Positions 32,599 to 47,339 of a stretch of DNA of 64,000 nt are shown one piece after another. A program made the position numbers and the translations under genes. Origin of the DNA: Pectobacterium aroidearum (GTDB taxonomy: Bacteria > Pseudomonadota > Gammaproteobacteria > Enterobacterales > Enterobacteriaceae); contig NZ_CP166097.1 in the NCBI RefSeq assembly GCF_041228105.1, positions 248,001-312,000 of the forward strand, in the 5' to 3' direction. Below the pieces are notes generated by a model. The model was not told where the DNA came from. It searched no databases and worked only from the letters and a program-made list of their open reading frames with translations. Every line of letters starts with the position of its first letter. Within the stretch, counting starts at the first letter, position 1.

Positions 32599-33963
32599 AT
32601 GGCATCACATCTTATTGATTTTCTTCTTATAGGGAATAATTTTGGCACGCCTGAAATGCGCGGCGTCTGGTCCGAGCATAATCGCCTGACTAAGCAGGTC
32701 GACGTTGAAGTTGCCCTGGCGCTTGCCGAGGGTGAACTGGGCGTCATTCCGCTGGATGCGGCAAAAACCATTGCAGAAAACGCTGACGCAAGCGCGCTTA
32801 ACGTTGAAGAGATTGCAAAAGATGCGGCACGCATGAAGCACTCTCTGATGCCGACGATTGCCGCGATTCAGAAACAGTGCGGCGCTGCGGGGGAATTTAT
32901 TCACTACGGTGTTACCACACAGGACATCGTTGATACCGCGACAGTGTTACAGCTGAAACAATCTTTTGATATTGTTGTAAGAGATACACAACTGCTGGCC
33001 GTTGAGCTGAAGCGTCTGGCGAAGAAATATCAACACACGCTGATGGCGGGTCGTACCCACGGTATGCAGGCGCTTCCCACCACGTTTGGCTTCAAACTGG
33101 CCGTCTGGCTGGATGAATTTATCCGTCACCTCGAACGTCTGACTGAAATCAAGGAACGTGTTCTTGTCGGCAACATCAACGGTGCCATCTGTACCTATGC
33201 TTCTTTTGGCGAACAAGGGCCGGAAATCGAGCGTCTGACGCTGGATAAACTGGGACTGAATACGCCGAATATCGGCTGGCAGTCTGCCCGTGATCGCTTC
33301 TCCGAATACGCCTCTGTTGCGGTGCTGATCAGCGGTACGCTGGGTAAAATCGGCAACGAGCTGTACAACCTGATGCGCACCGAGATTAACGAAATCGAAG
33401 AGCCGTTCTCCGAAGGGAAAATCGGTTCTACCACCATGCCGCATAAACGTAACCCTGCCGCATTGGAAGGGCTGGCGAGCCTGACTGCACCGCTGTTCAA
33501 GAGCGCCGCGCTGATTCATGAATCCATGAAAGTTGAGCACGAGCGTGATGCGATGAGCTGGCGTGCGGAGTGGATTGCATTGCCGGAAATCAATATCTAT
33601 CTGTCTGCTCAGCTTCAGAACGCGCTTGGCATCCTGCGTGGGATGTCCGTCAACGAGAAGCAAATGCTGGCGAATCTCGATCTGCAAAATGGCCTGCTGC
33701 TGTCCGAGAAAGTCATGTTCGAGATTGGTAAACGTCTTGGTAAGCAGACCGCTCACCATCTGGTTTACGAATGCTCAATGCAGGCATTCGAGCAAAATCA
33801 GTCCTTTAAATCGGTGTTGCTGGCTCATCCGGTGCTTTCTGAGCAGGTGACCGCCGCCGATCTGGACGAATGGCTGAATCCGGCTAACTACGTTGGCAGT
33901 GCGCCGCAGAAGGTTGATGACGTGATTCGCTATGCGGATAACTCCGGCCTGCTGCCAGCATAA
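32599..33963 (+). CDS. Fumarase/adenylosuccinate-lyase superfamily enzyme
   Basis: 454-residue homotetramer-type lyase that should split off fumarate by beta-elimination. The superfamily signature GSTTMPHKRNP sits at 276-286, with the catalytic-loop Ser277; the other conserved blocks are HYGVTTQDIVDTA (102-114) and AGRTHGMQ with His154. The G/V-TTQDI-DT form is nearer to the carboxymuconate cycloisomerase/second-lyase group than to E. coli PurB, so this is unlikely to be the purine enzyme. It heads an operon with an acetyltransferase, an amino acid importer and an M20 deacylase. I infer cleavage of a succinylated amino acid such as S-(2-succino)cysteine; the substrate is unproven. Confidence 0.85.
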   Translation: MASHLIDFLLIGNNFGTPEMRGVWSEHNRLTKQVDVEVALALAEGELGVIPLDAAKTIAENADASALNVEEIAKDAARMKHSLMPTIAAIQKQCGAAGEFIHYGVTTQDIVDTATVLQLKQSFDIVVRDTQLLAVELKRLAKKYQHTLMAGRTHGMQALPTTFGFKLAVWLDEFIRHLERLTEIKERVLVGNINGAICTYASFGEQGPEIERLTLDKLGLNTPNIGWQSARDRFSEYASVAVLISGTLGKIGNELYNLMRTEINEIEEPFSEGKIGSTTMPHKRNPAALEGLASLTAPLFKSAALIHESMKVEHERDAMSWRAEWIALPEINIYLSAQLQNALGILRGMSVNEKQMLANLDLQNGLLLSEKVMFEIGKRLGKQTAHHLVYECSMQAFEQNQSFKSVLLAHPVLSEQVTAADLDEWLNPANYVGSAPQKVDDVIRYADNSGLLPA

Positions 33964-33972
33964 GGTGACATC

Positions 33973-34515
33973 ATGAGTATCGTATTTCGTCAGGCTACGC
34001 TTGCGGATGATGAAACTTTTTTGGCACTGGCGCTGGCGGCGTTTGAGCCGATTCGCCAGTTGGGCATCAATTTTTCCGCCGCCCATGCGGACATCGACAT
34101 GGTGCGCACGCATATTGCTTCACACGGCGTTTATGTAATGGAAAAAGAGGGGGAGATGGTGTCGTCATTCACCATCCGCTATCCGTGGGGGCCGGAGCCA
34201 GGTCCGTTCGGTTTGCCCCATTTGGGTTGGTTTGCAACACACCCTGGCTATAAAAAGCAGGGACTGGGTAAGCAAATGATGGGCTGGCTGGAAGAAGAAA
34301 TTCTGATTAACCAGCTCAAAGCGCCTGCGGTGTCGCTTGGCACCGCGAAAAACCACCCGTGGCTGATTGAGATGTACAAAAATTATGGTTTCAGGGAAGT
34401 CGGGCAGACGAATCTGGGAAAAGGACACCTGACAATCTGGATGGAAAAAATCCTTGATAACCAATTGTATGACCAGTGGAAAGATAAAAACTCAAAAAGA
34501 GAGGCAGTAAAATGA
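33973..34515 (+). CDS. GNAT N-acetyltransferase
   Basis: 180 residues with a GNAT fold. The acetyl-CoA pyrophosphate loop is HPGYKKQGLGKQMM (about 94-107), followed by SLGTAKNHPWLIEMYKNYGF. It begins nine bases after the lyase behind AAGGTG and overlaps the binding-protein gene by ATGA. In the Bacillus yxe operon a GNAT (YxeL) N-acetylates S-(2-succino)cysteine before breakdown and an M20 enzyme removes the acetyl group; the same pair occurs here. Role inferred from context. Confidence 0.85.
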   Translation: MSIVFRQATLADDETFLALALAAFEPIRQLGINFSAAHADIDMVRTHIASHGVYVMEKEGEMVSSFTIRYPWGPEPGPFGLPHLGWFATHPGYKKQGLGKQMMGWLEEEILINQLKAPAVSLGTAKNHPWLIEMYKNYGFREVGQTNLGKGHLTIWMEKILDNQLYDQWKDKNSKREAVK

Positions 34516-35303
34516 TGAAAAAAGTAACGTTGTCTGTTCTGGCGCTGACGACCGCCTTTCTTGTAGCCGGCTGTGATTCTGGGAAAAGCAGCGCCGAGCA
34601 GGAAAAAGTACTGAAAGTGGGTTCAACCGGCCAAAGTTATCCAAGCGGTTTCAAGCAAGATAACAAGCTGGTTGGGTTTGACGTTGAAGTGACAGAAGCC
34701 ATTGCGAAAGATCTGAACTACAAAGTCGAGTGGGTCACCGCCGATTTCAGCGGCCTGATGGGGCAACTGGAAGCGAAAAAACTGGATACCGTGGCAAACG
34801 TAGTCGCCATTACGCCAGCGCGTCAGGAAAAATACAATTTTGCCCAGCCGTACAGCTTCTACGGCAGTCAGATTGTGACCCACAAAGACAACGCGGACAT
34901 TAATACGTTGGCCGACCTGAAAGGGAAGACCGTTGCCGGAGTTCTGGGTTCCAACCACGTCAACAACCTGAAAAAAGCGTTTGCCGACGGCAGCGTAAAT
35001 ATTCGTACCTATGAAACGCGCGATGGTGCGATGAACGATGCGCTGTCTAAGCGTGTTGAAGGCTACGTGAATTCACGTCCGATCCTGCTGGCGGAAATCA
35101 ATAAGCGTAACCTGCCGTTCAAGCTGGTTGGTGAGCCGCTGGTGATTGAAGAAGTGAGCTTCCCGTTCCATAAGGACGAGAAAGGCGATGCGCTGCGTAA
35201 GCAGTTCGATGCCGAATTAACGAAAATGCGTGAAGATGGACGCCTGAAAGCGATCTCCGAAAAATATTTTGGTGAAGACATCACGGTATCACCGGCTAAA
35301 TAA
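34512..35303 (+). CDS. Polar amino acid ABC transporter, lipoprotein binding protein
   Basis: 263-residue family 3 (SBP_bac_3) solute-binding protein. The signal peptide ends in the lipobox LVAGC with Cys21, unusual for a Gram-negative amino acid binding protein but common in Firmicutes such as YxeM. The body carries VGFDVEVTEAIAKDLNYKVEWV, LMGQLEAKKLDTVANVVAITPAR and LADLKGKTVAGVLGSNH. Two ATGs in tandem (34512, 34515) could start it. It should deliver the substrate to the permease and ATPase encoded next. Confidence 0.9.
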   Translation: MMKKVTLSVLALTTAFLVAGCDSGKSSAEQEKVLKVGSTGQSYPSGFKQDNKLVGFDVEVTEAIAKDLNYKVEWVTADFSGLMGQLEAKKLDTVANVVAITPARQEKYNFAQPYSFYGSQIVTHKDNADINTLADLKGKTVAGVLGSNHVNNLKKAFADGSVNIRTYETRDGAMNDALSKRVEGYVNSRPILLAEINKRNLPFKLVGEPLVIEEVSFPFHKDEKGDALRKQFDAELTKMREDGRLKAISEKYFGEDITVSPAK

Positions 35304-35398
35304 CCTCATGCCGTCATTCTGGCCGAATCGTTACGTAGACTGATTATTCGTGATGTAGGTAGCCAGATGATTCGTTATATAGCCTAGTCATAACCCTG

Positions 35399-35426
35399 TT
35401 CCACCGGCGCAATATGGCCGGTGGAA
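35399..35426 (+). promoter_or_regulatory. Intercistronic stem-loop covering the permease ribosome site
   Basis: TTCCACCGG pairs perfectly with CCGGTGGAA around a 10-base loop. The 3' arm includes GGTGGAAG, the best ribosome site for the permease start at 35433. It probably protects the binding-protein mRNA and lowers permease translation. Confidence 0.6.
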
Positions 35427-35432
35427 GCATTA

Positions 35433-36116
35433 ATGGTATTACTCATGAATATCGATCTTGCCTACCTGTTAAAGGTCTTTCCCCAGGTATTAATGTATTT
35501 GCCGACCACGCTGTTTCTTGCCGTGGTTTCGATGTTTTTTGCTATGGTTCTCGGCCTTATCCTGGCGTTAGTCCGTGAAAGCAAGATCGTCGTCGTGGTA
35601 AAAATCGTTGAACTGTATATCTCGCTGTTCCGCGGTATTCCGTCGCTGGTTCAGCTGTTTATTATCTATTTCGGCCTGCCGCAGCTGTTCCCCGGATTAT
35701 CCAATCTGGACGCCATGACAGCGGCGATTATCGGCTTTAGTCTGAAAACGTCCGCCTATATGGCAGAAATCTTCCGTGCGGGCCTGTCCTCGGTGGATTT
35801 CGGCCAGACGGAAGCGGGTTTATCGATTGGTATGAGCAAAGCGCAGGTCTATCGCCGCATCGTGTTGCCTCAGGCCATGTTGAATGCGCTGCCTGCGACG
35901 GGGAATACCTTTATTTCCCTGATTAAAGATACCTCGGTAGCCTTTGCGCTGGGTGTCTCTGAACTGTTCGCGGAAGGCAAGATGATTGCCGCCGAATCTC
36001 TGCGTTTCTTTGAGACCTTCCTGGTTGTGGGTCTGATTTACTGGTTGGTGATCATTGTTTATTCCTGGCTGCAAAAACAGCTGGAGAAGAAACTGAATCA
36101 CTCGCTACAGCGATAA
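35433..36116 (+). CDS. Polar amino acid ABC transporter permease
   Basis: About 227 residues, five membrane segments, His/Glu/Gln/Arg/opine-type permease. The EAA loop reads EAGLSIGMSKAQVYRRIVLPQA. Possible starts are GTG 35421, ATG 35433 and ATG 35445; I took 35433, which has GGAAG five bases upstream. It is separated from the binding-protein gene by 129 bases with a strong stem-loop and from the ATPase by nine bases. Confidence 0.9.
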   Translation: MVLLMNIDLAYLLKVFPQVLMYLPTTLFLAVVSMFFAMVLGLILALVRESKIVVVVKIVELYISLFRGIPSLVQLFIIYFGLPQLFPGLSNLDAMTAAIIGFSLKTSAYMAEIFRAGLSSVDFGQTEAGLSIGMSKAQVYRRIVLPQAMLNALPATGNTFISLIKDTSVAFALGVSELFAEGKMIAAESLRFFETFLVVGLIYWLVIIVYSWLQKQLEKKLNHSLQR

Positions 36117-36125
36117 GGGGCTGAC

Positions 36126-36887
36126 ATGATCAGTGTAAAGAATCTTTCTAAACGCTTTGGCGATCAGGTGGTGTTGGACAACATTAGTCTGAATATCGCG
36201 AAGGGCGAAGTCGTGGCGATTATCGGCCCATCTGGTTCGGGTAAATCCACGCTGCTGCGCTGTCTAAACCTGCTGGAAACGCCAGAGTCGGGCACGATTG
36301 AAATTGGCGACCAAACGTTGGATACGCGTCGTTATTCCTCTAAAGAGGCCTATGCGCTGCGCCGTCAGACCGCGATGGTATTCCAGAGTTACAACCTGTT
36401 TAAGAACAAAACGGCGCTGGAGAACGTGACGGAAGCGCTGATTGTTGTGAAAAAAATGCCGAAGAAGCAGGCGGATGAAATCGGTCTGGCGCTGCTGGAG
36501 CAGGTTGGTCTGCTGCCACAGGCGGCACAGTATCCGGTGACGCTATCCGGCGGGCAGCAGCAGCGCGTGAGTATTGCACGTGCGCTGGCGGTCGATCCGA
36601 AAGCCATCTTGTTTGATGAACCGACCTCGGCGCTGGACCCGGAAAGGGTACACGAAGTGCTTCAGGTGATTCAGAAGCTGGCGAAAAACGACACCACGAT
36701 GGTGATCGTGACCCATGAAATGCAGTTTGCGAAAGAAGTGGCTGACCGAGTGATCTTCATGGCAGACGGTCATATCGTTGAGGAAGGTCCGGCGGAGCAG
36801 GTCATTAGCTTCTCGGACAACCCGCAAACCCAGCGTTTCCTGCGTCAGTTGACCAAGCTGCCTGAGCCGCTTGAGTACGATATTTAA
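36126..36887 (+). CDS. Polar amino acid ABC transporter ATPase
   Basis: 253 residues of the GlnQ/HisP class. Walker [11 protein letters not shown]-loop VFQSYNLFKN, signature [15 protein letters not shown], Walker [14 protein letters not shown] and switch histidine in VTHEM are intact. It energises uptake by the two preceding components. It corresponds in place to YxeO of the Bacillus operon. Confidence 0.93.
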   Translation: MISVKNLSKRFGDQVVLDNISLNIAKGEVVAIIGPSGSGKSTLLRCLNLLETPESGTIEIGDQTLDTRRYSSKEAYALRRQTAMVFQSYNLFKNKTALENVTEALIVVKKMPKKQADEIGLALLEQVGLLPQAAQYPVTLSGGQQQRVSIARALAVDPKAILFDEPTSALDPERVHEVLQVIQKLAKNDTTMVIVTHEMQFAKEVADRVIFMADGHIVEEGPAEQVISFSDNPQTQRFLRQLTKLPEPLEYDI

Positions 36888-36964
36888 CGCATACGTAGAC
36901 ACACCTGCACGCCTGAACAAGGCCGCCCTGCCAGACAGGGCACGATAATGTGGAGCAAGAATTG

Positions 36965-38122
36965 ATGAAAACCGCACCCCAGCATGAGCCCCTGGCTCAG
37001 TTTATTCAGGCATTTCGCCACGATTTACACCGCAATCCTGAGCTGTCGAATCAGGAGTTTGAGACGACGAAGAAAATTCGTGCGGTATTAGAAAAAGAGG
37101 GGATTCGCATCCTCGATCTGCCGTTGAAAACCGGTCTGGTCGCGGAAGTCGGCGGTCTACAGGATGGCCCACTGGTCGTGGTCCGTTCGGACATCGACGC
37201 CCTGCCGATTGAAGAAGAGTCTGGCGTAGAATTTACGTCGCTCAATAAAGGGGTGATGCACGCCTGCGGTCATGATTTTCACTCTTCCGCTGCGCTGGGC
37301 GCGGCGATTCTGCTGAAGAAAATCGAGCCAGAACTGAAAGGCACGGTACGCATTTTATTTCAGGCGGCTGAAGAAACGGGGCTGGGCGCGCCGGAAGTTA
37401 TCGCCGTTGGTGCGTTGGACAATGCGGTAGCGATTTTCGGTATCCACAACGATCCAACGCTGCCTGTTGGCGTCATCGGTGGGAAAGACGGCGCGTTGAC
37501 GGCGGGCGTTGACCGTTTTGAGATCAAGATTGCGGCGAAAGGTTGTCACGCGGCGAAACCGCATGAAGGCAACGATCCGATTATCATTCTGGGTCAGCTG
37601 ATTTCTGCCGTACAGACCATCATCAGCCGCACGGTGTCGTCTGACAACAACGCGGTGGTGTCGATTACTCAGGTTCATAGCGGCAGCACGTGGAACGTTA
37701 TCCCTGATACCGCCTACGTTGAAGGTACGGTGAGAACGTTCAATCAGGACGCGCGTGATTTGATTGAACAGCGTTTCCGTCAGATTGTTTCAGGTATCGC
37801 CAGTACTTTTGGTGCGGAAATTGAGTTCCTGTGGCACGCAGGGCCGCCATCGGTGATCAACACGCCAGAGTGGGTTGAATTTGCGCTGAACGTGGCAAGT
37901 GACGAAGGGTTTGAAGCACGCCGTGTAGAAGCCAGCCCGATTGGTGAAGATTTCGCGTTCTATCAGCAGAAACTGCCGGGTACGTTCATGATGGTCGGCT
38001 CCGGTGGACCGTATGCGCTGCACCACCCGAAATTCCGCGTTGACGATCGCGCACTGTTCCCGACCGCGCACTATCTGTATCAGATGGCAAAGCAGAGTCT
38101 GGAACAGCTCTCCTCTCGCTAA
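36965..38122 (+). CDS. M20 family amidohydrolase (N-acyl amino acid deacylase)
   Basis: 385-residue di-metal amidohydrolase of the M20D/HipO group. Metal and catalytic motifs: RSDIDALPI, HACGHDFH (99 onwards), QAAEE and the late GEDFAFY with a C-terminal HHPKF. The ATG at 36965 was chosen over GTG 36950, which is probably part of the ribosome site (GTGGAGC). In the yxe pathway YxeP, of the same family, removes acetyl from N-acetylcysteine; hydrolysis of an N-acetyl amino acid is therefore the best guess here. A GCCCTG/CAGGGC hairpin lies at 36925-36941 in the 77-base gap before it. Confidence 0.88.
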   Translation: MKTAPQHEPLAQFIQAFRHDLHRNPELSNQEFETTKKIRAVLEKEGIRILDLPLKTGLVAEVGGLQDGPLVVVRSDIDALPIEEESGVEFTSLNKGVMHACGHDFHSSAALGAAILLKKIEPELKGTVRILFQAAEETGLGAPEVIAVGALDNAVAIFGIHNDPTLPVGVIGGKDGALTAGVDRFEIKIAAKGCHAAKPHEGNDPIIILGQLISAVQTIISRTVSSDNNAVVSITQVHSGSTWNVIPDTAYVEGTVRTFNQDARDLIEQRFRQIVSGIASTFGAEIEFLWHAGPPSVINTPEWVEFALNVASDEGFEARRVEASPIGEDFAFYQQKLPGTFMMVGSGGPYALHHPKFRVDDRALFPTAHYLYQMAKQSLEQLSSR

Positions 38123-38140
38123 GCCTTGTTAAAGCATGTT

Positions 38141-38174
38141 ATCCGCGTCGGTTCCTCGACGCGGATATTTTTTT
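38141..38174 (+). terminator. Terminator of the lyase operon
   Basis: ATCCGCGTCG pairs perfectly with CGACGCGGAT around a six-base loop, then ATTTTTTTA. It stands between the two convergent operons. Confidence 0.93.
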
Positions 38175-38175
38175 A

Positions 38176-38991
38176 TTAATGACTTAAAATCTGATCCAGA
38201 AACTGACGCGTTCTCGGATGTGAAGGCGTGTTGAAGAAGTCCTGCGGTGGAGCGGATTCAACGATGCTGCCGTCAGCCATCAGAATCACTTTGTCTGCAA
38301 CCGTTTTGGCAAAGCCCATCTCATGGGTAACGACGATCATCGTCATTCCGGATTCCGCCAAATCGAGCATCACATCCAACACCTCTTTAATCATCTCTGG
38401 ATCCAGTGCAGAAGTGGGTTCGTCAAACAACATTATTTCCGGCTGCATGCACAGCGCCCGGGCAATGGCTACGCGCTGCTGCTGGCCGCCAGAGAGCTGT
38501 AGCGGGAACTTATGCGCCTGATTGGCGATATGTACTTTTTCCAGATAGTGCATCGCTAAATCGATGGCTTCCTGCTTTTTACGCTGTTTAACCAGCGTCG
38601 GGCCGATCGTCAGGTTATCCAGCACGCTCAGGTGAGGAAACAAATTGAACTGCTGGAACAGCATACCGATGCCGGAGCGTACGCGGTTGATGTTCTTGAT
38701 GTTGTCATTGACCTCAATGCCATTCACGCGGATGTGCCCGTCGTGGTGCTCTTCCAGTCGGTTAATGCAGCGGATGAGCGTGGATTTGCCGGAGCCGGAA
38801 GGGCCGCAAATCACCACGCGCTCGCCTTTCTGCACGTTCAACGTCACGTTGTTCAGTGCCTGAAACGCGCCGTACCATTTGCTGACGGCGTCGATCTCAA
38901 TGATGACGTTGCTGTCTGTCATTACGTGATTTGTCATTGACGTGTCTGTAACTAGAGTCTCTGTAACTACAGTATCTGCGGCTAAGCTCAT
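38176..38991 (-). CDS. General amino acid ABC transporter ATPase (AapP-like)
   Basis: 271 residues from the ATG at 38991, which has AGGAG ten bases upstream; a TTG at 39000 is too close to that site. Walker [41 protein letters not shown] and [12 protein letters not shown] are intact. About 25 residues precede the usual family start ([18 protein letters not shown]) and come from a fourfold 15-base repeat, giving a Thr/Val/Asp-rich tail. Last gene of the aapJQMP-type group on this strand. Confidence 0.92.
38914..38973. repeat. Four imperfect 15-base tandem repeats in the 5' end of the AapP-like gene
   Basis: Units 38914-38928, 38929-38943, 38944-38958 and 38959-38973 share the pattern (G/C)TCTGTMAYTA on the plus strand. 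Since 15 is a multiple of three, copy number changes would lengthen or shorten the N-terminal tail by five residues without shifting the frame. Confidence 0.75.
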
Positions 38992-39033
38992 GATAACCAA
39001 GCTCCTGTCGGTGTTTTCATCAACGGCTATCGC

Positions 39034-40143
39034 TTAACCGTGATACGTTTCTGGGTTACGGCTGGCATCGATGCGCTTTTCTACCCACAGCGCGTAGCGT
39101 GAGAGCAAGAAGCCAAACAGCAGATAGATAGCCGAGATGAAAAGGTACGTTTCAATGTAATAGCGCCGCCATAGCGGGTCTTGCATCACTGAACTGGTGG
39201 CGGTGAGAATATCGAACAGCCCGATAATGATGACGAACGAGGTGTTCTTCATGGCGGCGATAATATGGTTGGTCATGGCAGGCAGGCAGATACGCAGCGC
39301 CTGCGGCAGGACGATTTTAGTCGTCGTGTGCCAATAACCGAGATTGAGCGCCATCGCCGCTTCGTATTGCCCGCGTGGTACGGACTGCAAACCGCCGCGA
39401 ATCACCTCAGCCTGATAGCAGGCGAAAAACAGCGCGATACCAATGATGATGCGCAGCAGCTTGTTGATTTCCATTCCGGCGGGCAGAAACAGCGGGAAGA
39501 CGTTAACGGCGACGAACAGGATCGTGATGAGCGGTACGCCGCGCAAACCTTCGATAAAAATAACCGACAGACCGCGTAGAAAAGGCAGCGGTGAGCGACG
39601 CCCCAGCGCCAGCAGAACTGAAACCGGCATACCGATGACGACGGTGCCGCTAAACAGCAGAATCGTCAGCGGCAGTCCGCCCCATTCGCTGGAAGGCACG
39701 TCAGATAAGCCAAACACGCCGCCGGACATCAGGATGGCAATGCTGACTACCGCGACGAGCCACAGCGGTAAGAGGATGCGTGAGTGCCAGAAGCGTGGCA
39801 TCAGCGACAGGCCAAGTGCCAAAAACCAGATTCCCATCGCCAGCACCAGACGCCAGTGTTCATCGTAAGGATAAAGACCAAACAGAATAGGGCGATGTTT
39901 TTCCACGATCACCGCCCAGCAGGCGCCAGCGGCTGCACGACAGATGTCCGGGTCAGCGGTGTACCACACGGCATCGAGAATGCCCCAGTGCAGCAGTTTA
40001 TTGCCGACGTTCCACATTAGCACCGCGAGTAACAGTGTAAGCACCGTTTGCGGCACGCTGCTGAATAGATGGCGGCGCAGCCACAGCAGCGGCGTACGCA
40101 GTTGGCTGGGAACGGCAGAGAGTGACAGGACCGGAAATAGCAT
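39034..40143 (-). CDS. General amino acid ABC transporter permease (AapM-like)
   Basis: 369 residues, the longer type of amino acid permease with extra N-terminal membrane segments and a periplasmic loop before the transport core. The core has LRGVPLITILFVAVNVFPLF and the EAA loop EAAMALNLGYWHTTTKIVLPQA. A GAGGAG site precedes the ATG. Paired with the AapQ-like gene ten bases upstream. Confidence 0.9.
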   Translation of the reverse strand: MLFPVLSLSAVPSQLRTPLLWLRRHLFSSVPQTVLTLLLAVLMWNVGNKLLHWGILDAVWYTADPDICRAAAGACWAVIVEKHRPILFGLYPYDEHWRLVLAMGIWFLALGLSLMPRFWHSRILLPLWLVAVVSIAILMSGGVFGLSDVPSSEWGGLPLTILLFSGTVVIGMPVSVLLALGRRSPLPFLRGLSVIFIEGLRGVPLITILFVAVNVFPLFLPAGMEINKLLRIIIGIALFFACYQAEVIRGGLQSVPRGQYEAAMALNLGYWHTTTKIVLPQALRICLPAMTNHIIAAMKNTSFVIIIGLFDILTATSSVMQDPLWRRYYIETYLFISAIYLLFGFLLSRYALWVEKRIDASRNPETYHG

Positions 40144-40153
40144 ACGGTGCTCC

Positions 40154-41377
40154 TCAGCGCTCTTTGATAGCGACGACGCGGTTAAACAGGTTCATCAGCA
40201 GCGATGTCACGATGCTGACCGTCAGATAAACCACCATCATGATGGCTATCACTTCGAGCGCCTGACCGGTCTGGTTCATCAGCGTATTGCTGATGTTTGC
40301 CAGTTCCGGGTAACCGACCACGACTGCGATCGAGCTGTTTTTTGACAGGCTGACATACTGGCTGGTCAGCGGTGGAACGATGACGCGCATGGCCTGTGGG
40401 ATAATGATGTGGCGCATCATGTGCCACGGCGAAAAAGACAGTGCTCGTGCCGCTTCCAACTGACCTTTGGGGATAGACTGAATCCCCGCCCGCACGATTT
40501 CTGCGATAAACGCGGAGGAATAGAGCGCAATGCCGAGCAGCAGCGCTGTAAATTCAGGGCTGACGGTAAAGCCGCCGCGAAAGTTAAAGCCGCGCAAGAT
40601 CGGGCGATCGAGCTCTGCTGGTGCGCCGGAAAGCCACCAGACCAATAGCGGTAGCCCGATAAGGGCTGCCAGCGTCAAACGACCTGTCGGCAGAGAGCGC
40701 CCGCGACTTTCCCGAACATAGCGCGCTACGCGGTTCAGGATCAGGCTAATCAGTACGGCGGCGAGCAGGGCGATTCCCGTCCACAGCCAGCCGTGGTGTG
40801 CGGCGGGAACGGCAAAAGACAGCCCGCGATTGGTCAGGAATCCCAGATTACCCAGTTCGATAGCATCCCGCGGTGAGGGCAAGTTGCGGATCACCACTGA
40901 CCAGAAAATCACCTGCAAGATCACCGGAATATTGCGCATCATCTCGATGTATCCTCCGGCGAGCCGCGCCAGCAACCAGTTACGAGAGACGCGGGCGATG
41001 CCGACGGAGAAGCCCAGCAGCGTGGCGAGCACGATGCCGCACAGCGTGATGTACAGGGTATTCAGTAACCCGACGCCCAGTGCGCGCAGGTAACTGTCGC
41101 GTGGGGTAAAGGCGATGAGCTTTTCACCGATCTCAAACTGCGCGGTGTGGTCAAGAAAGCCAAATCCTGTTGCGATATTTTGCGAGCGCAGGTTTTCGAC
41201 CACGTTGGCATAGAGCCAGTAGCTGAAAGCGACAATCAGGAGGCCGAGCAGGCACTGATAAATCCAGGCGCGCAGCGACTTGCTGTCAAACGCATTCAAC
41301 AGACGGCGCGCATAAGATGGCGTTCCCAGCCACGACGGTGCAGAGGCTGACGGCAGCGTTGGGTGTGGTGATTTCAT
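40154..41377 (-). CDS. General amino acid ABC transporter permease (AapQ-like)
   Basis: 407 residues; like AapQ it has an N-terminal segment (NVVENLRSQNIATGFGFLDH) before the permease core, where EMMRNIPVILQVIFW and EAARALSFSPWHMMRHIIIPQA are visible. It forms the membrane channel with the AapM-like subunit. Its ribosome site is weak and it follows a 125-base gap with a stem-loop after the binding-protein gene. Confidence 0.9.
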   Translation of the reverse strand: MKSPHPTLPSASAPSWLGTPSYARRLLNAFDSKSLRAWIYQCLLGLLIVAFSYWLYANVVENLRSQNIATGFGFLDHTAQFEIGEKLIAFTPRDSYLRALGVGLLNTLYITLCGIVLATLLGFSVGIARVSRNWLLARLAGGYIEMMRNIPVILQVIFWSVVIRNLPSPRDAIELGNLGFLTNRGLSFAVPAAHHGWLWTGIALLAAVLISLILNRVARYVRESRGRSLPTGRLTLAALIGLPLLVWWLSGAPAELDRPILRGFNFRGGFTVSPEFTALLLGIALYSSAFIAEIVRAGIQSIPKGQLEAARALSFSPWHMMRHIIIPQAMRVIVPPLTSQYVSLSKNSSIAVVVGYPELANISNTLMNQTGQALEVIAIMMVVYLTVSIVTSLLMNLFNRVVAIKER

Positions 41378-41455
41378 TACCGGCGGTCTTTTCTTCTGAT
41401 CATTACCGATTGCAGCGCGCTATCCGAGGGGATCTGTGCGTGAATACGGTGGTAT

Positions 41456-41488
41456 GGCGTCAGCCCGGATATTCTCGGGGGTGACGCC
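41456..41488 (-). promoter_or_regulatory. Intercistronic stem-loop between aapJ-like and aapQ-like genes
   Basis: GGCGTCA pairs with TGACGCC, with an inner CCCG/CGGG stem, and no T run. Such hairpins after a binding-protein gene usually protect its mRNA and reduce expression of downstream membrane subunits. Confidence 0.6.
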
Positions 41489-41502
41489 GATGATTGGGTG
41501 AA

Positions 41503-42555
41503 TTAACGAATGGGCAGACCGTAGAGCAAACCGCCTTTCGTCCAGAGATTATTCAGGTCGCGCTCCAGCGGTGCTGGGGTATCTGGCCCGAAGTGGCGGT
41601 TATAAATATCGCCGTAATTCCCGACCTGCTTAATCACGTTGTAAGCCCACTGGTTACTCAATCCCAGTTTCTGACCGTAATCGCCAGTGACCCCAAGCAG
41701 CGCCTGTATATCCGGGTCTGTCGACTTGAGCTTGCTGTCCACGTTCTGTTGACCGATTTCCATCTCTTCCGCGTTGAATGTGGCGTAAACCACCCATTTC
41801 ACAATGTCGTACCACTGGTCGTCACCCTGACGAACCGCCATCGCCAGCGGCTCTTTTGAGTAAATCCCCGGCAGAATCACATGGTCGGACGGCTTTTCCG
41901 CATCAAAGGTGCGCACGCCGGGCAGGGCGACTTTATCGCGGGCAATGACGTCGCAGCGTCCAGACAGGTAGGCCGCGACATACTCTTTATTGTTCTCGAT
42001 AACCACCGGGGTGTAATGCAGGTTGCGTGAGGCAAAAATCTGCGCGACGTTACGTTCGGTGCTGCTGCCCGGTGTGATACAGACGGTCGCGCCGTCCAGA
42101 TCTTCGACTTTCTTCACATTGGCGCTGGTGCGCACCATGAAGCCCGTACCGGTATAGAAGGTCGGCGGCGCGAAGTTCAGCCCCAGCGACGTATCGCGAG
42201 ACAAATCAGCGGTGATATTGCGTGACAGCACGTCCACTTCACCAGACTGAATCGCGGGGAAGCGCTGGGCGGTGGAAAGGGCGGCAAAGCGTACTTTATT
42301 CGCATCGCCAAACACAGCGGCCGCTAATGCGCGGCAATAATCGACGTCCAGCCCGGTCCACTGTCCTTTGCTATCAATCGCGGAAAAGCCGTGGCGCGCT
42401 GGGTGCACGCCGCACACCAGTTCACCGCGTGCTTTGATTTTTTTGAGCGTTTCGCCATTTCCTGCATCAGCGGCATTAGCGTGTGCGACGGGCAGCAGAA
42501 GCCCCCCTAAAGTCAGCGCTGTGGCGGTCGTCAACGAGAGTAGTTTTCTCAGCAT
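41503..42555 (-). CDS. General amino acid ABC transporter periplasmic binding protein (AapJ-like)
   Basis: 350 residues with a cleavable signal peptide ending near VAHANA, not a lipoprotein. Typical AapJ/YhdW features: LKKIKARGELVCGVHP, GLDVDYCRALAAAVFGD, VDVLSRNITADLSRDTSLGLNFAPP and C-terminal GDIYNRHFG. It should bind one or several L-amino acids. It has its own promoter region with a perfect 12-bp palindrome shared with the MmgE/PrpD promoter. Confidence 0.93.
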   Translation of the reverse strand: MLRKLLSLTTATALTLGGLLLPVAHANAADAGNGETLKKIKARGELVCGVHPARHGFSAIDSKGQWTGLDVDYCRALAAAVFGDANKVRFAALSTAQRFPAIQSGEVDVLSRNITADLSRDTSLGLNFAPPTFYTGTGFMVRTSANVKKVEDLDGATVCITPGSSTERNVAQIFASRNLHYTPVVIENNKEYVAAYLSGRCDVIARDKVALPGVRTFDAEKPSDHVILPGIYSKEPLAMAVRQGDDQWYDIVKWVVYATFNAEEMEIGQQNVDSKLKSTDPDIQALLGVTGDYGQKLGLSNQWAYNVIKQVGNYGDIYNRHFGPDTPAPLERDLNNLWTKGGLLYGLPIR

Positions 42556-42624
42556 AAGTATCCTCAGAATGATCGGTGTTGTTTTAATTTGTTGTAATTA
42601 ATGGTTTTTATTATGGCGCGTTCT

Positions 42625-42636
42625 TTTGTATACAAA
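42625..42636. promoter_or_regulatory. Candidate GntR (FCD) operator before the AapJ-like gene
   Basis: Perfect palindrome TTTGTATACAAA 70 bases upstream of the start. It fits the t-GT-N3-AC-a type bound by FCD-domain GntR regulators. A near copy lies beside the GntR gene at 46443-46454. Confidence 0.65.
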
Positions 42637-42730
42637 TGTTCTCAATGTTGCATCTAAATGGCAAATAGCATATTTCTCTATCTAAATCTGAATATTGGAT
42701 ATAGCCATTTCGGGCACGACCAGAAGGATA

Positions 42731-42773
42731 AAAAAGAGAGGTGTGCCTCGCACGGTAAGCAAGGCACAGAGGT
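42731..42773 (-). terminator. Probable terminator after the TauE/SafE gene
   Basis: Read on the minus strand, TGTGCCT pairs with AGGCACA around a 13-base loop and is followed by CCTCTCTTTTTTAT. It would separate the MmgE/PrpD-TauE transcript from the transporter transcript. Confidence 0.6.
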
Positions 42774-42778
42774 ATGAT

Positions 42779-43540
42779 TTAGCGGGCGAGCAGGCTTTGT
42801 ATGCCTTGCCACATGAGCTGGGCGCTGAGCACTAACATGGTGAGGCGAAACGTGGTGCGGAAGAGTTTTTCAGGCAGATTATCCAGCAGGCGTGTGCCCA
42901 GCCAGGTGCCTAATACGCCGCTGACAATCATCGCAGCCAGCATCGGCAGCCAATCGTGATAGGCAAACCCCATCATCCCGAATGCCAGTATCTTCAGGCC
43001 GTGTTGTAACACCATGCAGAGCGCGTGCGTGGCGATAAGCGGCTTCTTGGTGACCCCTTGAGAGCTGATAAGCCCGGCGACCATTGGACCCGTTGCGCCG
43101 ACAATCATGGTGCCGAGGCTGGTGAGCGCACCACCGAGAATGAAGAACAATCGATTAACCGGTTTTGGCGCGGTGCGTTTACGGAAAACCGACCACAGAA
43201 TGAAACTGGCCAGCGCAATTTTTGCCACGCTGTCTGGGATCCAAACGACGACGGGCGCGCCCAGTGCGATGCCGATGACGCTGCCGATAAAAAACCACAG
43301 CGCCAATGGCCAGACGATATACAAACGCTGGATCAGGCTGCGGCTGAGGTTGGAGCCTAGCTGGACGATGCCGTGTACCGGCAGCAGGCTGCTGACTGGC
43401 ATCCCGAGACCCATGATCGCAAGCAATGTGACGCCACCGCCCAGCCCCAGCGCGGCCGTTAACGCCGACGTCAAAAAACTGCAAAAAATCAGGATACCGG
43501 CAAAGAGCGGGGAAATGTCGGGCGGAACAAGGTGTAGCAT
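42779..43540 (-). CDS. TauE/SafE family permease
   Basis: About 253 residues and eight hydrophobic segments of the sulfite exporter TauE/SafE family (DUF81): SFLTSALTAALGLGGGVTLLAIM near the N terminus and the internal half-repeat TSLGTMIVGATGPMVAGL. Members move sulfite, sulfoacetate or other small organic anions. Start uncertain: ATG 43540 has GATGGG upstream; ATG 43552 and TTG 43600 are alternatives. It follows the MmgE/PrpD pair in one operon, so it may export a sulfur-containing or organic acid end product. That role is inferred. Confidence 0.82.
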   Translation of the reverse strand: MLHLVPPDISPLFAGILIFCSFLTSALTAALGLGGGVTLLAIMGLGMPVSSLLPVHGIVQLGSNLSRSLIQRLYIVWPLALWFFIGSVIGIALGAPVVVWIPDSVAKIALASFILWSVFRKRTAPKPVNRLFFILGGALTSLGTMIVGATGPMVAGLISSQGVTKKPLIATHALCMVLQHGLKILAFGMMGFAYHDWLPMLAAMIVSGVLGTWLGTRLLDNLPEKLFRTTFRLTMLVLSAQLMWQGIQSLLAR

Positions 43541-43615
43541 GGTGAAACCCATCGCGTGGTCGAGCAAATGATAATGCCTGATGCGTTCAATGCGTATCAA
43601 GCACCCGTTCCGCTG

Positions 43616-44941
43616 TTAACGATAATCGTCATGCAGCAGGCGTTGATACAACGCCTGCGCCTCAGGGCGTGGCAAAGCCTGACTGGCGCAGTCGATGAAT
43701 TTCTCCGCAATCAGATTATCCGGCAGCGGGTTCTCTGCGCTGGAGCCACGCGCACCTGCCACGCGGCGATGATAGGTGTGGCCGTCACGAGTGATTAGCG
43801 TAACGTGCGCCGTGTGTGTGGTGGGTTCGTCATGACAGATGAGCTCAACGCGTGCCATCAGCGATTGTGTGGTGGGGTCGTGCAGCGCCGTTTCGTCAAT
43901 AAAATCGTCCAGCGTCAGCTTTCCCTGCACCCAGGCACGGGCAATACAGTAGTGCAGGCTGAATTTCCCCGCCAGCGGTGTATCCGGTGTCGGGATGTTG
44001 ATGTGCGGGAAGCGAATAGGGTGGATGGCAATCTGAATGCGTTCCAGCGATTCTGGGGACAGATCGGTTTCCTCGCGTAGCGTCAGCAGGCCGTCCAGCG
44101 GTGCCAGAATGGCGTAGCAGCAGGGGAAATATTTAAAATTATTCCCTTTTACGGGGTCCAGAATATGAGACGGTGCGGACCAATACTCGGTTAACGGCGT
44201 GGTGTCGACGTTTTCGGCGGCGCGGTTGTAGACGTTGAAATACCCGTGGTGGTGTTCAAATGCGGTATCCCCCGCGCTGTATCCCTGACGCGCCAATAAT
44301 ACCGCCATGACGGCGCTGCGATTGGCGTGGCCGACTGCCAGTGATTTCGTTTGACTGCCGAAGTTGGATTTGATGCCGGAGGCGAGTGACGCCGTGATTG
44401 CAAAGGCGGTCGCCGTTTCTTCTTCACTGAGCTTCAGCAGCACCGCGCAGGCTGCCACGCCCGCGAAAATGCCGACGGACGTTGTAGGGTGCCAGCCGTT
44501 GCGATATTGAAAAGGGCTGACGGCTTTGCCCATGCGTACCGCGGTTTCATAACCACACAAATAGGCATGCAGGATCGCTTCTCCGTTGGCTTCCTGCTCG
44601 TCTGCCAGCGCCAGCAAGGCCGGGAGTACGGCGACAGAAATATGCCCGTGCAGCCAGGAGTTGGAGTCGTCAAAATCGAGCAAATGCGCGGATGTGCCGT
44701 TTAATAACGCCGCATCCAGCGCGTTAAGTTTGAGATCGGTACCGAAAATACGGCTCTTTCCCACGGCGGCGGAGGGCACTATCACCGCCCTGAGTTTTTG
44801 CGCCCCGTCCTGAATCCCCCCCGCGAGCGTGACGCCCAGCGTATCAATTACGGCAGTGCGGGCGTGTGCCAATACGTCGGCAGGGAACGTCTGGCGAGAA
44901 AATTCCAGCAGATTATGGGCAAGCTGGCGGGCAATGGTCAT
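43616..44941 (-). CDS. MmgE/PrpD family protein (first copy by coordinate)
   Basis: 441 residues, the length of family members such as 2-methylcitrate dehydratase and iminodisuccinate epimerase. Seen: HARTAVIDTLGVTLAGG, LLNGTSAHLLDFDDSN, GYETAVRMGKAV, GWHPTTSVGIFAGVAA and KYFPCCYAILAPLDGLL. No methylcitrate pathway genes are nearby, so a true PrpD role is unlikely. Its neighbour upstream is a second, distinct family member. The lyase operon opposite suggests an epimerase acting on a succinyl stereocentre. Confidence 0.88.
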   Translation of the reverse strand: MTIARQLAHNLLEFSRQTFPADVLAHARTAVIDTLGVTLAGGIQDGAQKLRAVIVPSAAVGKSRIFGTDLKLNALDAALLNGTSAHLLDFDDSNSWLHGHISVAVLPALLALADEQEANGEAILHAYLCGYETAVRMGKAVSPFQYRNGWHPTTSVGIFAGVAACAVLLKLSEEETATAFAITASLASGIKSNFGSQTKSLAVGHANRSAVMAVLLARQGYSAGDTAFEHHHGYFNVYNRAAENVDTTPLTEYWSAPSHILDPVKGNNFKYFPCCYAILAPLDGLLTLREETDLSPESLERIQIAIHPIRFPHINIPTPDTPLAGKFSLHYCIARAWVQGKLTLDDFIDETALHDPTTQSLMARVELICHDEPTTHTAHVTLITRDGHTYHRRVAGARGSSAENPLPDNLIAEKFIDCASQALPRPEAQALYQRLLHDDYR

Positions 44942-45004
44942 GGAAGCGTCCTGTCGTTATCGTGAAATTTTTATATCGAATGGTTTATGTCTAACTGAAG
45001 CGCG

Positions 45005-46357
45005 TTAGCCCGCTAATAGCGAAGTCAGTGTCGCGAGCGACCCCGGCTGCTCAAAGTGGAAAGCCGCCTGATAGAGCCGACGGCTGCGGTCTTCCCCCAA
45101 TATGGGGAGGGTCAGCGCGTCAAACTTGGTGCGCAGCTCGGCGTCGGTCAGTGGATTTTGCGGGTGGCCGCGATAAACATCGGTTTCGGCATGGAGTATT
45201 TCGCCGTCTTCCAGTTCGATATCGATAAACGCGGAACTGGCCGATTGCCCCTCGACGGCATCGATCTGTAGGCGTGACAGCAACTGGCGTGCAGCCGGGT
45301 CGTCAACGGTCTGCTGCGTAAAGTCCGTATCGGTGAGGTTATAGCCGCTCAACGCCAGCGCAATGCAGTGCGGAATACTGAATTTGCTCTCCAGTGGAGT
45401 TTGCGGGTTGGCGATCCCCGCGTTCACCATTCCCATTGGATGGACTTTGGCATGAATACGGGTGATAGCGCGGCCTTTTAGCTGTGGATAGAGCTTGAGT
45501 GCCGTTTCAATTGACGCATGGGTGCCTCGACAGCTGGCATACAGTTTGTAGCCATTACCCAATAGCTCCCAACTGTCGCCAAAATCGAGCGGCGGGATGA
45601 CGGCACTGCCGTCCTGCACAAAGGTTTTTACCCAGCCATCGGTTTCATAAAAGTGATGGGCGGCAATAAAACCTTCCTCAGCCAGTTCTGCCGCCGTGAT
45701 GCCATCCATTGCCGCTTTGCCAGCATGAAACGGTTTGCCGTGCGTACCGGATGATTTCTGCAATCCTCCCATCATTGTCGCAGCCGCCCCCAACGCATTG
45801 GCAATGGCGTTGGGTTCCAGACGCAGAATGGAAGCGGCAACGGCTGCTGCTCCCGCGCGTCCGACAATCGACGTTGGGTGAAAGCCTCGACGTTGCAGGC
45901 TGCGACCTACGCCAGGCACCCAGCCGCCCCCCAGTCTGGCCATGACTTCAAATCCGGTGATGAACGCGATAAGCGTCGTGCGTTCGTCCGCACCGTAATG
46001 CTGTGCCATTGCCAACGCGGTTGACCAGCAAGGGCCGCTAGGGTGCCCCGCACCAGCCGGATGCGTATCGTCATAGTCGGCTGCATGAGAAAGCGTGCCG
46101 TTGATCAGTGCTGCCAGTGCCGGTGTGGTTTTCGCACCGAGAATGATTTGTGCCTTCCCCTGAGCCTGCCAGCGTTGCGCCACGCGTTGAACCGTGCTGG
46201 CCGCATCGTCGCCTGTCGCGCCAATGGAGACGCCCAGATAGTCAATGAGCGCCCGCTTGGCTTCGTGCCACACGGCATCGGGGATCGTCATTGTGGGCGC
46301 GTTGTGAATAAACTGGCTGAGCGCGTTGCCGCGAGGAAACGTCGGGGTGGCAGACAT
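45005..46357 (-). CDS. MmgE/PrpD family protein (second copy)
   Basis: 450 residues. Seen: KRALIDYLGVSIGATGDDA, LINGTLSHAADYDDTHP, GFEVMARLGGGWVPGVGRSLQRRGFHPTSIVGRAGAAA, GLQKSSGTHGKPFHAGKAAMDG and YKLYASCRGTHASIETAL. It is first in its operon, with an AAGGAGC site before the ATG, and is clearly diverged from its neighbour, so the pair is an old duplication or two recruitments. YxeQ of the Bacillus S-(2-succino)cysteine operon is of this family. Activity unproven. Confidence 0.88.
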   Translation of the reverse strand: MSATPTFPRGNALSQFIHNAPTMTIPDAVWHEAKRALIDYLGVSIGATGDDAASTVQRVAQRWQAQGKAQIILGAKTTPALAALINGTLSHAADYDDTHPAGAGHPSGPCWSTALAMAQHYGADERTTLIAFITGFEVMARLGGGWVPGVGRSLQRRGFHPTSIVGRAGAAAVAASILRLEPNAIANALGAAATMMGGLQKSSGTHGKPFHAGKAAMDGITAAELAEEGFIAAHHFYETDGWVKTFVQDGSAVIPPLDFGDSWELLGNGYKLYASCRGTHASIETALKLYPQLKGRAITRIHAKVHPMGMVNAGIANPQTPLESKFSIPHCIALALSGYNLTDTDFTQQTVDDPAARQLLSRLQIDAVEGQSASSAFIDIELEDGEILHAETDVYRGHPQNPLTDAELRTKFDALTLPILGEDRSRRLYQAAFHFEQPGSLATLTSLLAG

Positions 46358-46688
46358 CGTAGGAGCTCCTTAAGCAAAAACGCGAGGAGATTGCCAGTAC
46401 ACCGAACGGTGCTAAGATTCGCGTTTTGTATTGTTGAATGCATTTGTATACAGTGTGTGGCGAAAAGCATATGCAATCGCCCATTCAGTGACAAAGACGC
46501 TTTTTCGCTAAGCTAAGTACAAAATATGCGATGCGATATCTTGCTAAAGGCAGGGCGTCGGGCAAACTTGAATTTTTCTCAATGCATGACGATCCGTAGC
46601 GTAAAGGTGCGAACCGCGACAAAAATCGAGGCGTTTGTTCATCTGCTCGCGGCCTTATTCCGACCGTCACACGATATATCAAGGGACT
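46358..46688. promoter_or_regulatory. Divergent promoter region of the MmgE/PrpD operon and gntR
   Basis: 331 bases without a gene. TTTGTATACAGT at 46443-46454 matches 10 of 12 bases of the palindrome before the AapJ-like gene; a half site TTTGTA lies at 46425-46430 and TACAAA at 46518-46523. These are likely operators of the divergent GntR regulator, for both directions. I see no other structure. Confidence 0.6.
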
Positions 46689-47339
46689 ATGAACTTAACA
46701 CTTAACGACAAAGCGCCGGCACTGTCGCCATTCGAGGTACTGATTAACGCGATAGAGAAAGGCGAGCTGCTGCCTGGCGAACGTTTGCAGGAAACACGGT
46801 TGGCGAAGCAGTTTGGATTGAGCCGGACGCCGATTCGTGAGGCGCTGCACCGTCTGGAAGCGTTGGGGCTGGTGGAGCCGGGTCCACAGCGTGGACTGAT
46901 GATCGCGCAGATCAGCTATGAGCGACTGCGTCAGCTTTTCGCCGTGCGTGAAGGGTTAGAGCGGCTGGCGATGGAGCTTGCTGTCGCTTCTGCGTCGGCA
47001 GAGGAGTTGGCGCTGCTGCAGGATATGGTCGACGTGGAGAAGACGCTCACCGACAGCCGACAACTGCACGATCATAATCGGCTTTTTCATCGCCAGATTT
47101 ACCGGGCGACTCATAATCCGTATCTGAATGAGATGCTGGAAAATCTGCGCATTCATCTGTCGCTCCTGCGCGGAACCACTTATGAATCGACGGAACGTAC
47201 CGAAGAGGCGCGGCGTGAACATCAGGCAATTGTGGCAGCGTTGGTACGGCGTGATAAGGACGCGGCACAAGAGGCTGCCTGCCAACATATCCGTAACGGC
47301 TATCGTGCCCGACTAAGCATGTTAAATCAGCAGCTTTGA
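46689..47339 (+). CDS. GntR family regulator with FCD domain
   Basis: 216 residues. An N-terminal winged helix (LQETRLAKQFGLSRTPIREALHRLEALGLVE) is followed by an all-helical FCD ligand domain with Asp and His metal ligands (HDHNRLFHRQIYRATHN, REHQAIVAAL). ATG at 46689 follows AAGGGA. FCD regulators usually repress catabolic operons and are released by an organic acid substrate. It is divergent from the MmgE/PrpD operon, and palindromes suggest it also controls the aap-type transporter. Confidence 0.9.
   Translation: MNLTLNDKAPALSPFEVLINAIEKGELLPGERLQETRLAKQFGLSRTPIREALHRLEALGLVEPGPQRGLMIAQISYERLRQLFAVREGLERLAMELAVASASAEELALLQDMVDVEKTLTDSRQLHDHNRLFHRQIYRATHNPYLNEMLENLRIHLSLLRGTTYESTERTEEARREHQAIVAALVRRDKDAAQEAACQHIRNGYRARLSMLNQQL

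Follow-up and report, generated by a model that had tools for sequence, protein, structure and literature searches.

A likely S-(2-succino)cysteine lyase operon and an adjacent mobile MmgE/PrpD module in Pectobacterium aroidearum

Damage by fumarate leaves S-(2-succino)cysteine (2SC) as its stable mark, and how bacteria break this compound down is only partly known. The closest described systems are the yxe-type loci. According to the published study (Hillmann 2022, PMC9706529), the S-(2-succino) lyases (2SL) of Dickeya dadantii and Enterococcus italicus have been characterised and prefer N-acetyl-2SC, both lyase genes complement a Bacillus subtilis yxeK mutant, and 2SL occurs in 27 of 102 yxe loci, where the lyase essentially takes the place of YxeK. 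YxeQ is given there as a protein of unknown function. For mercaptosuccinate breakdown in Advenella mimigardefordensis, a cluster has been described in which thiol dioxygenase and rhodanese genes lie together with genes for a cystathionine beta-lyase and an ABC importer of polar amino acids (PMC5373536). Here, we describe a locus in a 64,000-nucleotide stretch of contig NZ_CP166097.1 of P. aroidearum, a species from a genus of plant soft-rot bacteria (positions 248,001 to 312,000, hereafter the window), in which a plus-strand operon with a lyase gene (module A) faces a minus-strand unit (module B) coding for two MmgE/PrpD proteins, a TauE/SafE permease and an amino acid importer. On balance, we believe that these are two adjacent gene sets, of which module A would salvage cysteine from 2SC, and module B would be a separately switched importer and processor of a related sulfur-linked dicarboxylate amino acid.

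The 2SL-type operon and the YxeQ orthologue

Module A consists of six genes (32599-38122) coding for a lyase, a GNAT acetyltransferase, a binding lipoprotein, a permease, an ATPase and an M20 enzyme. The host genome has a size of 5.28 Mb, and the window lyase is identical to the lyase of P. aroidearum L6. The six-gene order is conserved in Dickeya, Brenneria, Samsonia and Pantoea loci, so the arrangement is not due to chance. The lyase is 88-89% identical to the proteins of Dickeya oryzae and D. undicola, where the gene order matches as well. Lyase loci were taken from a genome-contig scan (best 80 of 125 loci) and from plasmids; frames with fewer than 380 aligned residues, e.g., a broken Gilliamella copy (L138) and pieces on an E. 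coli plasmid (L010), were excluded from the count. All 58 counted lyases with 54% identity or more had a GNAT gene as a neighbour; none of the 27 more distant ones did. The former also had M20 (52), ATPase (52) and binding protein (47) genes as neighbours; around the latter, a single ATPase gene and no M20 or binding protein gene were seen. Lyases of at least 54% identity, that of the window included, formed one clade in a quick tree (SH-aLRT 100), from which ten near-identical Pectobacterium loci were excluded. The long-branched lyase of locus L143 (38% identity) also fell inside this clade. We found 2SL in all 24 Pectobacterium genomes searched, our own genome included. No YxeK monooxygenase is encoded among the operon genes, the search being confined to the operon. 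Module A is thus likely a yxe-type 2SC locus with a 2SL lyase, of the kind published in 2022. A preliminary description of this DNA had proposed that a lyase replaces the YxeK monooxygenase here. The gene set and the published Dickeya and Enterococcus lyases bear this out, and the gene-neighbourhood check it suggested gave the same answer, with the constant GNAT neighbour and the six-gene order recurring in other genera.

Automatic annotation would make the window lyase merely a second adenylosuccinate lyase, and it does pass the NCBIfam purB model (373.6 bits, cut-off 326.2), which explains why all four copies on Pantoea plasmids are labelled purB. We regard this assignment as very improbable. 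The genome encodes a separate PurB (798 bits against PRK09285, where the window lyase scores 97), to which the window lyase is only 25% identical, and in the phylogeny the window lyase clusters with lyases from GNAT/ABC/M20 loci, as the preliminary description had expected. A PcaB-like protein is also encoded in the genome. The window lyase scored 275-297 bits with PcaB, 3c8t and trans-aconitate decarboxylase and 31.9 bits with 6g3d. The latter is named argininosuccinate lyase in the PDB list, and we take it to be EDDS lyase; its score speaks against an EDDS/iminodisuccinate lyase as the closest relative.

Several details of 2SL loci were recorded in addition. The loop of the window lyase reads GSTTMPHKRNP, with Thr at the second Ser position of the SS.MP.K.N loop, as in many 2SL lyases; in the other 2SL lyases, and in every non-2SL lyase whose loop could be read, SST or SSA is found instead. 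The second Ser is presumably catalytic in the lyase family. An extra binding-protein gene, whose product is 55-63% identical to the operon's own, lies upstream of the lyase gene in several 2SL loci (L072:6275, L081:7719, L085:7054, L091:9047). The 528-kb plasmid NZ_CP115896.1 of Pantoea piersonii (L008) carries a 2SL operon with a lyase labelled purB and a chemoreceptor gene directly downstream. On the E. coli plasmid (L010, 8001-10734), the lyase homologue is in three pieces and adjoins an MmgE/PrpD gene.

MmgE/PrpD genes were present at a distance of up to 6.5 kb from 24 of the 58 lyases. The proteins of all 24, PDB entry 7BRA and a third MmgE/PrpD protein of Pectobacterium formed one clade (99/97) in a tree of the 63 rows kept after removal of partial frames, of second copies from one locus and of most duplicates from Pectobacterium. 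This YxeQ-type clade adjoins iminodisuccinate (IDS) epimerase (99/96), and those MmgE/PrpD proteins from near more distant lyases that entered the tree (L011, L127, L132, L149, L151, L154) lie outside it. The third Pectobacterium protein is encoded at about 813 kb in the genome (L152:9764-11092), about 520 kb from the window locus, and it is present in all 24 Pectobacterium genomes. It retains the R-G-H motif and the Tyr found in 24 of 24 clade members from lyase loci. Fifteen other Enterobacterales genomes have a 2SL operon lacking an MmgE gene; 14 of them have a YxeQ orthologue elsewhere (52-87% identity), of which two, both from Symbiopectobacterium, are broken, and in the fifteenth, a metagenome bin, the match reaches only 30%. 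In six Bacillota genomes with 2SL and no MmgE gene in the operon, a YxeQ match was absent from four and weak in two (34% and 40%). The Symbiopectobacterium YxeQ-type genes (L236, L244, L239, L250, L254) have stops or are split into pieces, and the 2SL gene is still open.

The preliminary description had taken the window pair, MmgE1 and MmgE2, for the yxe component. The placement of MmgE2 in the YxeQ clade was rejected (p-AU 0.00014 in the approximately unbiased test), and MmgE1, for which we have the tree placement, lies outside it in a separate 100/100 clade and lacks the Tyr base. The proposed epimerisation of 2SC by an MmgE/PrpD protein remains attractive for the YxeQ orthologue at 813 kb and not for the window pair; judging by these relationships, the orthologue is more likely than the window proteins to be the epimerase for both 2SC diastereomers. 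The wiring of MmgE1 and MmgE2 into the 2SC operon was probably wrong, since a likelier epimerase is encoded elsewhere in the genome and the neighbouring genes form a separate module. MmgE2 may nevertheless act on 2SC as well. As yxeQ accompanies 2SL in Enterobacterales even outside the operon and is kin to IDS epimerase, this sole unassigned gene of the published pathway gains a testable prediction, i.e., that its product belongs with the epimerases. Its clade membership also suggests that 7BRA is YxeQ itself. PDB entries 7BRA and 7E9D are deposited as B. subtilis IRG1; because 7BRA clusters with MmgE/PrpD proteins of 2SL loci, this name is probably misleading, and another study judges that 7BRA is not a cis-aconitate decarboxylase (PMC12290011).

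Module B as a mobile unit with its own importer and operator

Module B comprises MmgE1, MmgE2, TauE/SafE, AapJ, AapQ, AapM and AapP on the minus strand and a divergent GntR/FCD gene. It is present in 13 of the 24 Pectobacterium genomes, always about 11 kb from 2SL, and the other 11 have 2SL only. Module B is present or absent as a block: the gap between m20 and hemY is about 0.7 kb in four named genomes without it and 9.8 kb in the window, and in P. fontis tauE alone remains in this gap. Samsonia and one Brenneria locus out of five carry module B at the equivalent site. The whole block from GntR to AapP was also found on a Klebsiella pneumoniae plasmid, where identities are 71-84% and the 25 kb inspected contain no 2SL gene. 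This plasmid (NZ_CP141562.1, L155) is typed as conjugative, the strain name lists NDM5 and OXA48, and transposase genes lie a few kb downstream. The MmgE pair of Sodalis is accompanied by a tripartite tricarboxylate transporter; a search for the lyase there gave no match at E <= 1e-100. The same type of transporter stands beside the MmgE2-TauE-MmgE1 genes of Rhizobium daejeonense. The window TauE is 76% identical to the Klebsiella protein and 62% to that of R. daejeonense, whose gene is located between the two mmgE genes. Module B is, therefore, an accessory, mobile unit. When 398 genomes of the phylum (E <= 1e-70) and 394 genomes of the order (E <= 1e-90) were searched with MmgE1, only our own genome gave a match; module B is thus rare, and its counts rest on few lineages.

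The importer of module B belongs to a distinct subfamily. The window AapJ had ten plasmid matches at 69-82% identity, the next one being at 55%, and its best foreign match in a sample of 398 proteobacterial genomes was at 53%. MmgE genes lie beside the dedicated aapJ in 10 of 10 plasmid records and beside ordinary aapJ in 0 of 20 loci, three of which are clipped by contig ends. The controls were the 20 best foreign AapJ matches minus G162 (contig end), and the ordinary AapJ of the window genome as the twentieth. This linkage indicates an AapJQMP subfamily dedicated to the MmgE-linked module.

A palindrome was first spotted by eye in the gap between gntR and mmgE1, with one mismatch in the window (TTGTATACAG) and as the exact TTGTATACAA on the Klebsiella plasmid. 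A scan of the window revealed a sole exact copy of TTGTATACAA, upstream of aapJ. At up to one mismatch, the 64 kb contain two matches, with 1.1 expected by chance, and both are in the two promoter gaps of module B. All 13 Pectobacterium copies and that of Samsonia carry the exact aapJ site; in Brenneria it has one mismatch. In first-order random sequence, the chance of such a site is 0.016 for the aapJ gap and 0.012 for the gntR gap, the motif itself having been picked by eye. With up to one mismatch allowed, neither the sequence upstream of 2SL in the window nor that of 11 further loci contained such a site (one of the 11 did with two mismatches), and the idea of one system under a common operator was rejected. 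GntR is predicted to bind the palindrome at the module B promoters, and module B is accordingly predicted to be switched separately from module A.

Possible function of module B and the competing readings

MmgE2 retains both bases proposed for the IDS-type epimerase, His and Tyr (HGH; QY..GWH), and has a further His two positions before the proposed His base, where IDS epimerase has Arg. IDS epimerase was also the best structural match of the MmgE2 model. MmgE1 keeps the His, and Gln is aligned at the position of the Tyr base. The substrates known for the MmgE/PrpD family have a common 1,4-dicarboxylate core (PMC12290011). The genes around the pair hint at sulfur. A TauE gene accompanies the pair in Klebsiella, R. 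daejeonense and the Pectobacteriaceae. In Sodalis, the neighbours of the MmgE pair code for a rhodanese and a thiol dioxygenase-like protein; those of the MmgE genes in P. yeei code for TauE, for a persulfide-dioxygenase-like protein and for an SQR-like fusion with a sulfur transferase. In Klebsiella, a gene for a BisC-like S/N-oxide reductase (below the model cut-off) adjoins module B. Taken singly, each of these neighbours is weak. With sulfur genes, an amino acid importer and enzymes of 1,4-dicarboxylates side by side, a sulfur-linked dicarboxylate amino acid is the simplest assumption: the substrate of module B is most likely a 1,4-dicarboxylate of this kind, 2SC or a near relative, from which the sulfur would be exported. 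In our own genome, no match to the Sodalis thiol dioxygenase was found at E <= 0.001 in a search run without a positive control.

On this two-set reading, module A would follow the published route: imported 2SC would be N-acetylated by the GNAT enzyme, the 2SL lyase would split N-acetyl-2SC into fumarate and N-acetylcysteine, and the M20 enzyme would deacetylate the latter; the second 2SC diastereomer would be supplied through the YxeQ orthologue encoded about 520 kb away. In module B, GntR would repress the mmgE1-mmgE2-tauE and aapJQMP promoters until the substrate is present, and AapJQMP would bring it in. MmgE2, with His and Tyr, might invert the sulfur-bearing carbon, MmgE1, with His and no Tyr, might then free the sulfur half from the dicarboxylate, and sulfur ending as sulfite would leave through TauE. 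To our knowledge, a desulfurising lyase reaction is not known for the MmgE/PrpD family. A bolder form of this scheme is speculative and, as a whole, unlikely: module B would break down S-linked succinyl amino acids without acetylation, MmgE2 racemising the carbon that bears the sulfur and MmgE1 acting as a desulfurising lyase, with export of sulfite, and YxeQ would be the 2SC epimerase, so that 7BRA would be that enzyme and not a cis-aconitate decarboxylase. If true, the sulfur reading would add new chemistry to a large, mostly unassigned family.

The most credible competitor, though still rather doubtful, is that module B handles a sulfur-free amino dicarboxylate, e.g., one derived from imino compounds or aconitate, with isomerases of the methylsuccinate type and a TauE/SafE protein exporting an organic anion. 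Most substrates known for MmgE/PrpD enzymes are 1,4-dicarboxylates without sulfur (PMC12290011), and a PrpF-type tautomerase gene adjoins 5 of the 10 dedicated AapJ loci; however, four kinds of sulfur gene adjoin the MmgE pair or array across lineages. We consider it distinctly unlikely that the locus is one system, with AapJQMP as a second 2SC importer and the window MmgE/PrpD proteins as epimerases that supply the neighbouring lyase by acting on the succinyl centre of 2SC or N-acetyl-2SC. The His and Tyr bases of MmgE2 and its structural match to IDS epimerase would suit such a role, as would the adjacency of the two modules, but MmgE2 falls outside the YxeQ clade, the genome already encodes a YxeQ-type protein and MmgE1 lacks the Tyr. 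The preliminary description had linked the pair to 2SL in this way, and the distribution speaks against the link as well: the pair occurs in Sodalis without a lyase match at E <= 1e-100, 2SL occurs on its own, with no MmgE pair, in 11 of 24 Pectobacterium genomes, and the operator was not found upstream of 2SL.

Several observations weigh against the reading of two separate sets, with sulfur as the theme of module B. Modules A and B are adjacent in 13 of 13 Pectobacterium genomes with module B, in Samsonia and in one Brenneria, i.e., in three genera, and may therefore share a purpose. The palindrome was not found in the Klebsiella tauE-aapJ gap, and the alphaproteobacterial metC-aapJ gaps have two-mismatch forms only. 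The sulfur genes vary by lineage, those for SQR and persulfide dioxygenase coming from one species only, and TauE/SafE proteins are able to carry other anions. The thiol dioxygenase-rhodanese pair is weak as a standing MmgE partner, as four of four other loci viewed had no MmgE gene. MetC was dropped as a sign of a carbon-sulfur substrate: a metC gene lies beside 9 of 10 dedicated aapJ loci and also beside 12 of 20 ordinary ones (L202-L207, L209, L212, L214-L216, L219), so metC-aap is a general arrangement. Three MetC-like matches (29-46% identity) are present in our own genome. The ten AapJ plasmid records represent about seven species, and the Dickeya comparison was made with the lyases of D. 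oryzae and D. undicola, not with the characterised D. dadantii protein E0SKP1.

Gene layout and comparison with described systems

All genes named in the preliminary description are confirmed as open frames with the expected domains (Table 1), including the operon of lyase, GNAT, ABC importer and M20 that faces the MmgE/PrpD pair and TauE/SafE. Its account of the minus-strand operon holds for the MmgE pair and TauE; the AapJQMP importer (38176-42555) and the divergent GntR/FCD gene (46635-47339) had been omitted. The convergent units meet at a terminator-like hairpin; across the region, 14 terminator-like sites were found and 18.2 were expected, i.e., there is no excess over chance. The top NCBIfam model of the module A solute-binding protein is a cystine binding protein, with a score below the cut-off. 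Compared with the proteins of the Klebsiella plasmid, the window AapP shows 84% identity from residue 31 onward and GntR 77% from residue 19 onward. The first in-frame start of gntR is TTG, although translation may begin some 50 bases further downstream.

Table 1. Features of the locus, with positions counted from the first letter of the window.
Feature	Position	Strand	Basis or remark
2SL-type S-(2-succino) lyase, 454 amino acids, module A	32599..33963	+	PF00206 + PF10397
GNAT acetyltransferase, predicted YxeL role	33973..34515	+	PF00583
Family-3 solute-binding lipoprotein, cystine-type importer, lipobox-like LVAGC	34512..35303	+	PF00497
ABC permease, module A importer	35421..36116	+	PF00528
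ABC ATPase, module A importer	36126..36887	+	PF00005; top NCBIfam model TcyN, below cut-off
M20 deacylase, predicted N-acetylcysteine deacetylase role	36950..38122	+	PF01546; TIGR01891 above cut-off
Terminator-like hairpin, 12 pairs, T run	38140..38167	.	Between convergent units
AapP-type ATPase, module B	38176..39000	-	First in-frame start TTG; true start may be downstream
AapM-type permease	39034..40143	-	Open frame, comparison with relatives
AapQ-type permease	40154..41377	-	Open frame, comparison with relatives
AapJ-type binding protein, dedicated subfamily	41503..42555	-	Plasmid matches
Predicted GntR operator TTGTATACAA	42626..42635	.	Upstream of aapJ; sole exact copy in window
TauE/SafE permease, predicted sulfur oxyanion exporter	42779..43600	-	PF01925
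MmgE2, MmgE/PrpD protein, His and Tyr bases	43616..44941	-	
MmgE1, MmgE/PrpD protein, without Tyr base	45005..46357	-	
Predicted GntR operator TTGTATACAG, one mismatch	46444..46453	.	Between gntR and mmgE1
GntR/FCD regulator, module B	46635..47339	+	PF00392 + PF07729

Among described enzymes, the 3-sulfopropionylcysteine synthase XcbD is the second-best NCBIfam model of the window lyase (441.7 bits), but the score is below the model cut-off of 600 bits, and the context of XcbD, as given by the model name, is coenzyme M synthesis. The IDS epimerase of Agrobacterium tumefaciens BY6 (PDB 2HP0/2HP3) is the nearest outgroup of the YxeQ clade and has the fold and the His/Tyr pair in common with MmgE2; on the other hand, MmgE2 has His in place of Arg, their structural alignment gives 29% identity, and MmgE1 lacks the Tyr. 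(S)-(R)-methylsuccinate isomerase, cis-aconitate decarboxylase and 2-methylcitrate dehydratase belong to the same family and act on the same 1,4-dicarboxylate core, whereas their pathways are described, in the accessible part of the source, without an amino acid importer or a sulfur gene (PMC12290011). None of these three functions was assigned to module B genes by an NCBIfam model above its cut-off. The Advenella mercaptosuccinate cluster resembles Sodalis, where dioxygenase-like and rhodanese genes lie beside the MmgE pair, but its available description mentions no MmgE/PrpD gene (PMC5373536).

A literature search that mostly covered papers free of subscription found no description of module B, a mobile unit with a regulator and an importer subfamily to itself, and no paper that pairs an MmgE protein with TauE or mercaptosuccinate with succinocysteine. 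The 2SC lyase operon, on the other hand, is of a published kind. Like the yxe/scm 2SC loci with 2SL in that work (PMC9706529), it contains the lyase, GNAT, three ABC parts and M20 as one unit. It differs from them in two respects: the Pectobacterium operon is without a yxeQ gene, the orthologue lying at a distance of about 520 kb, and an additional GntR-MmgE-TauE-Aap module is located downstream in 13 of 24 Pectobacterium genomes.

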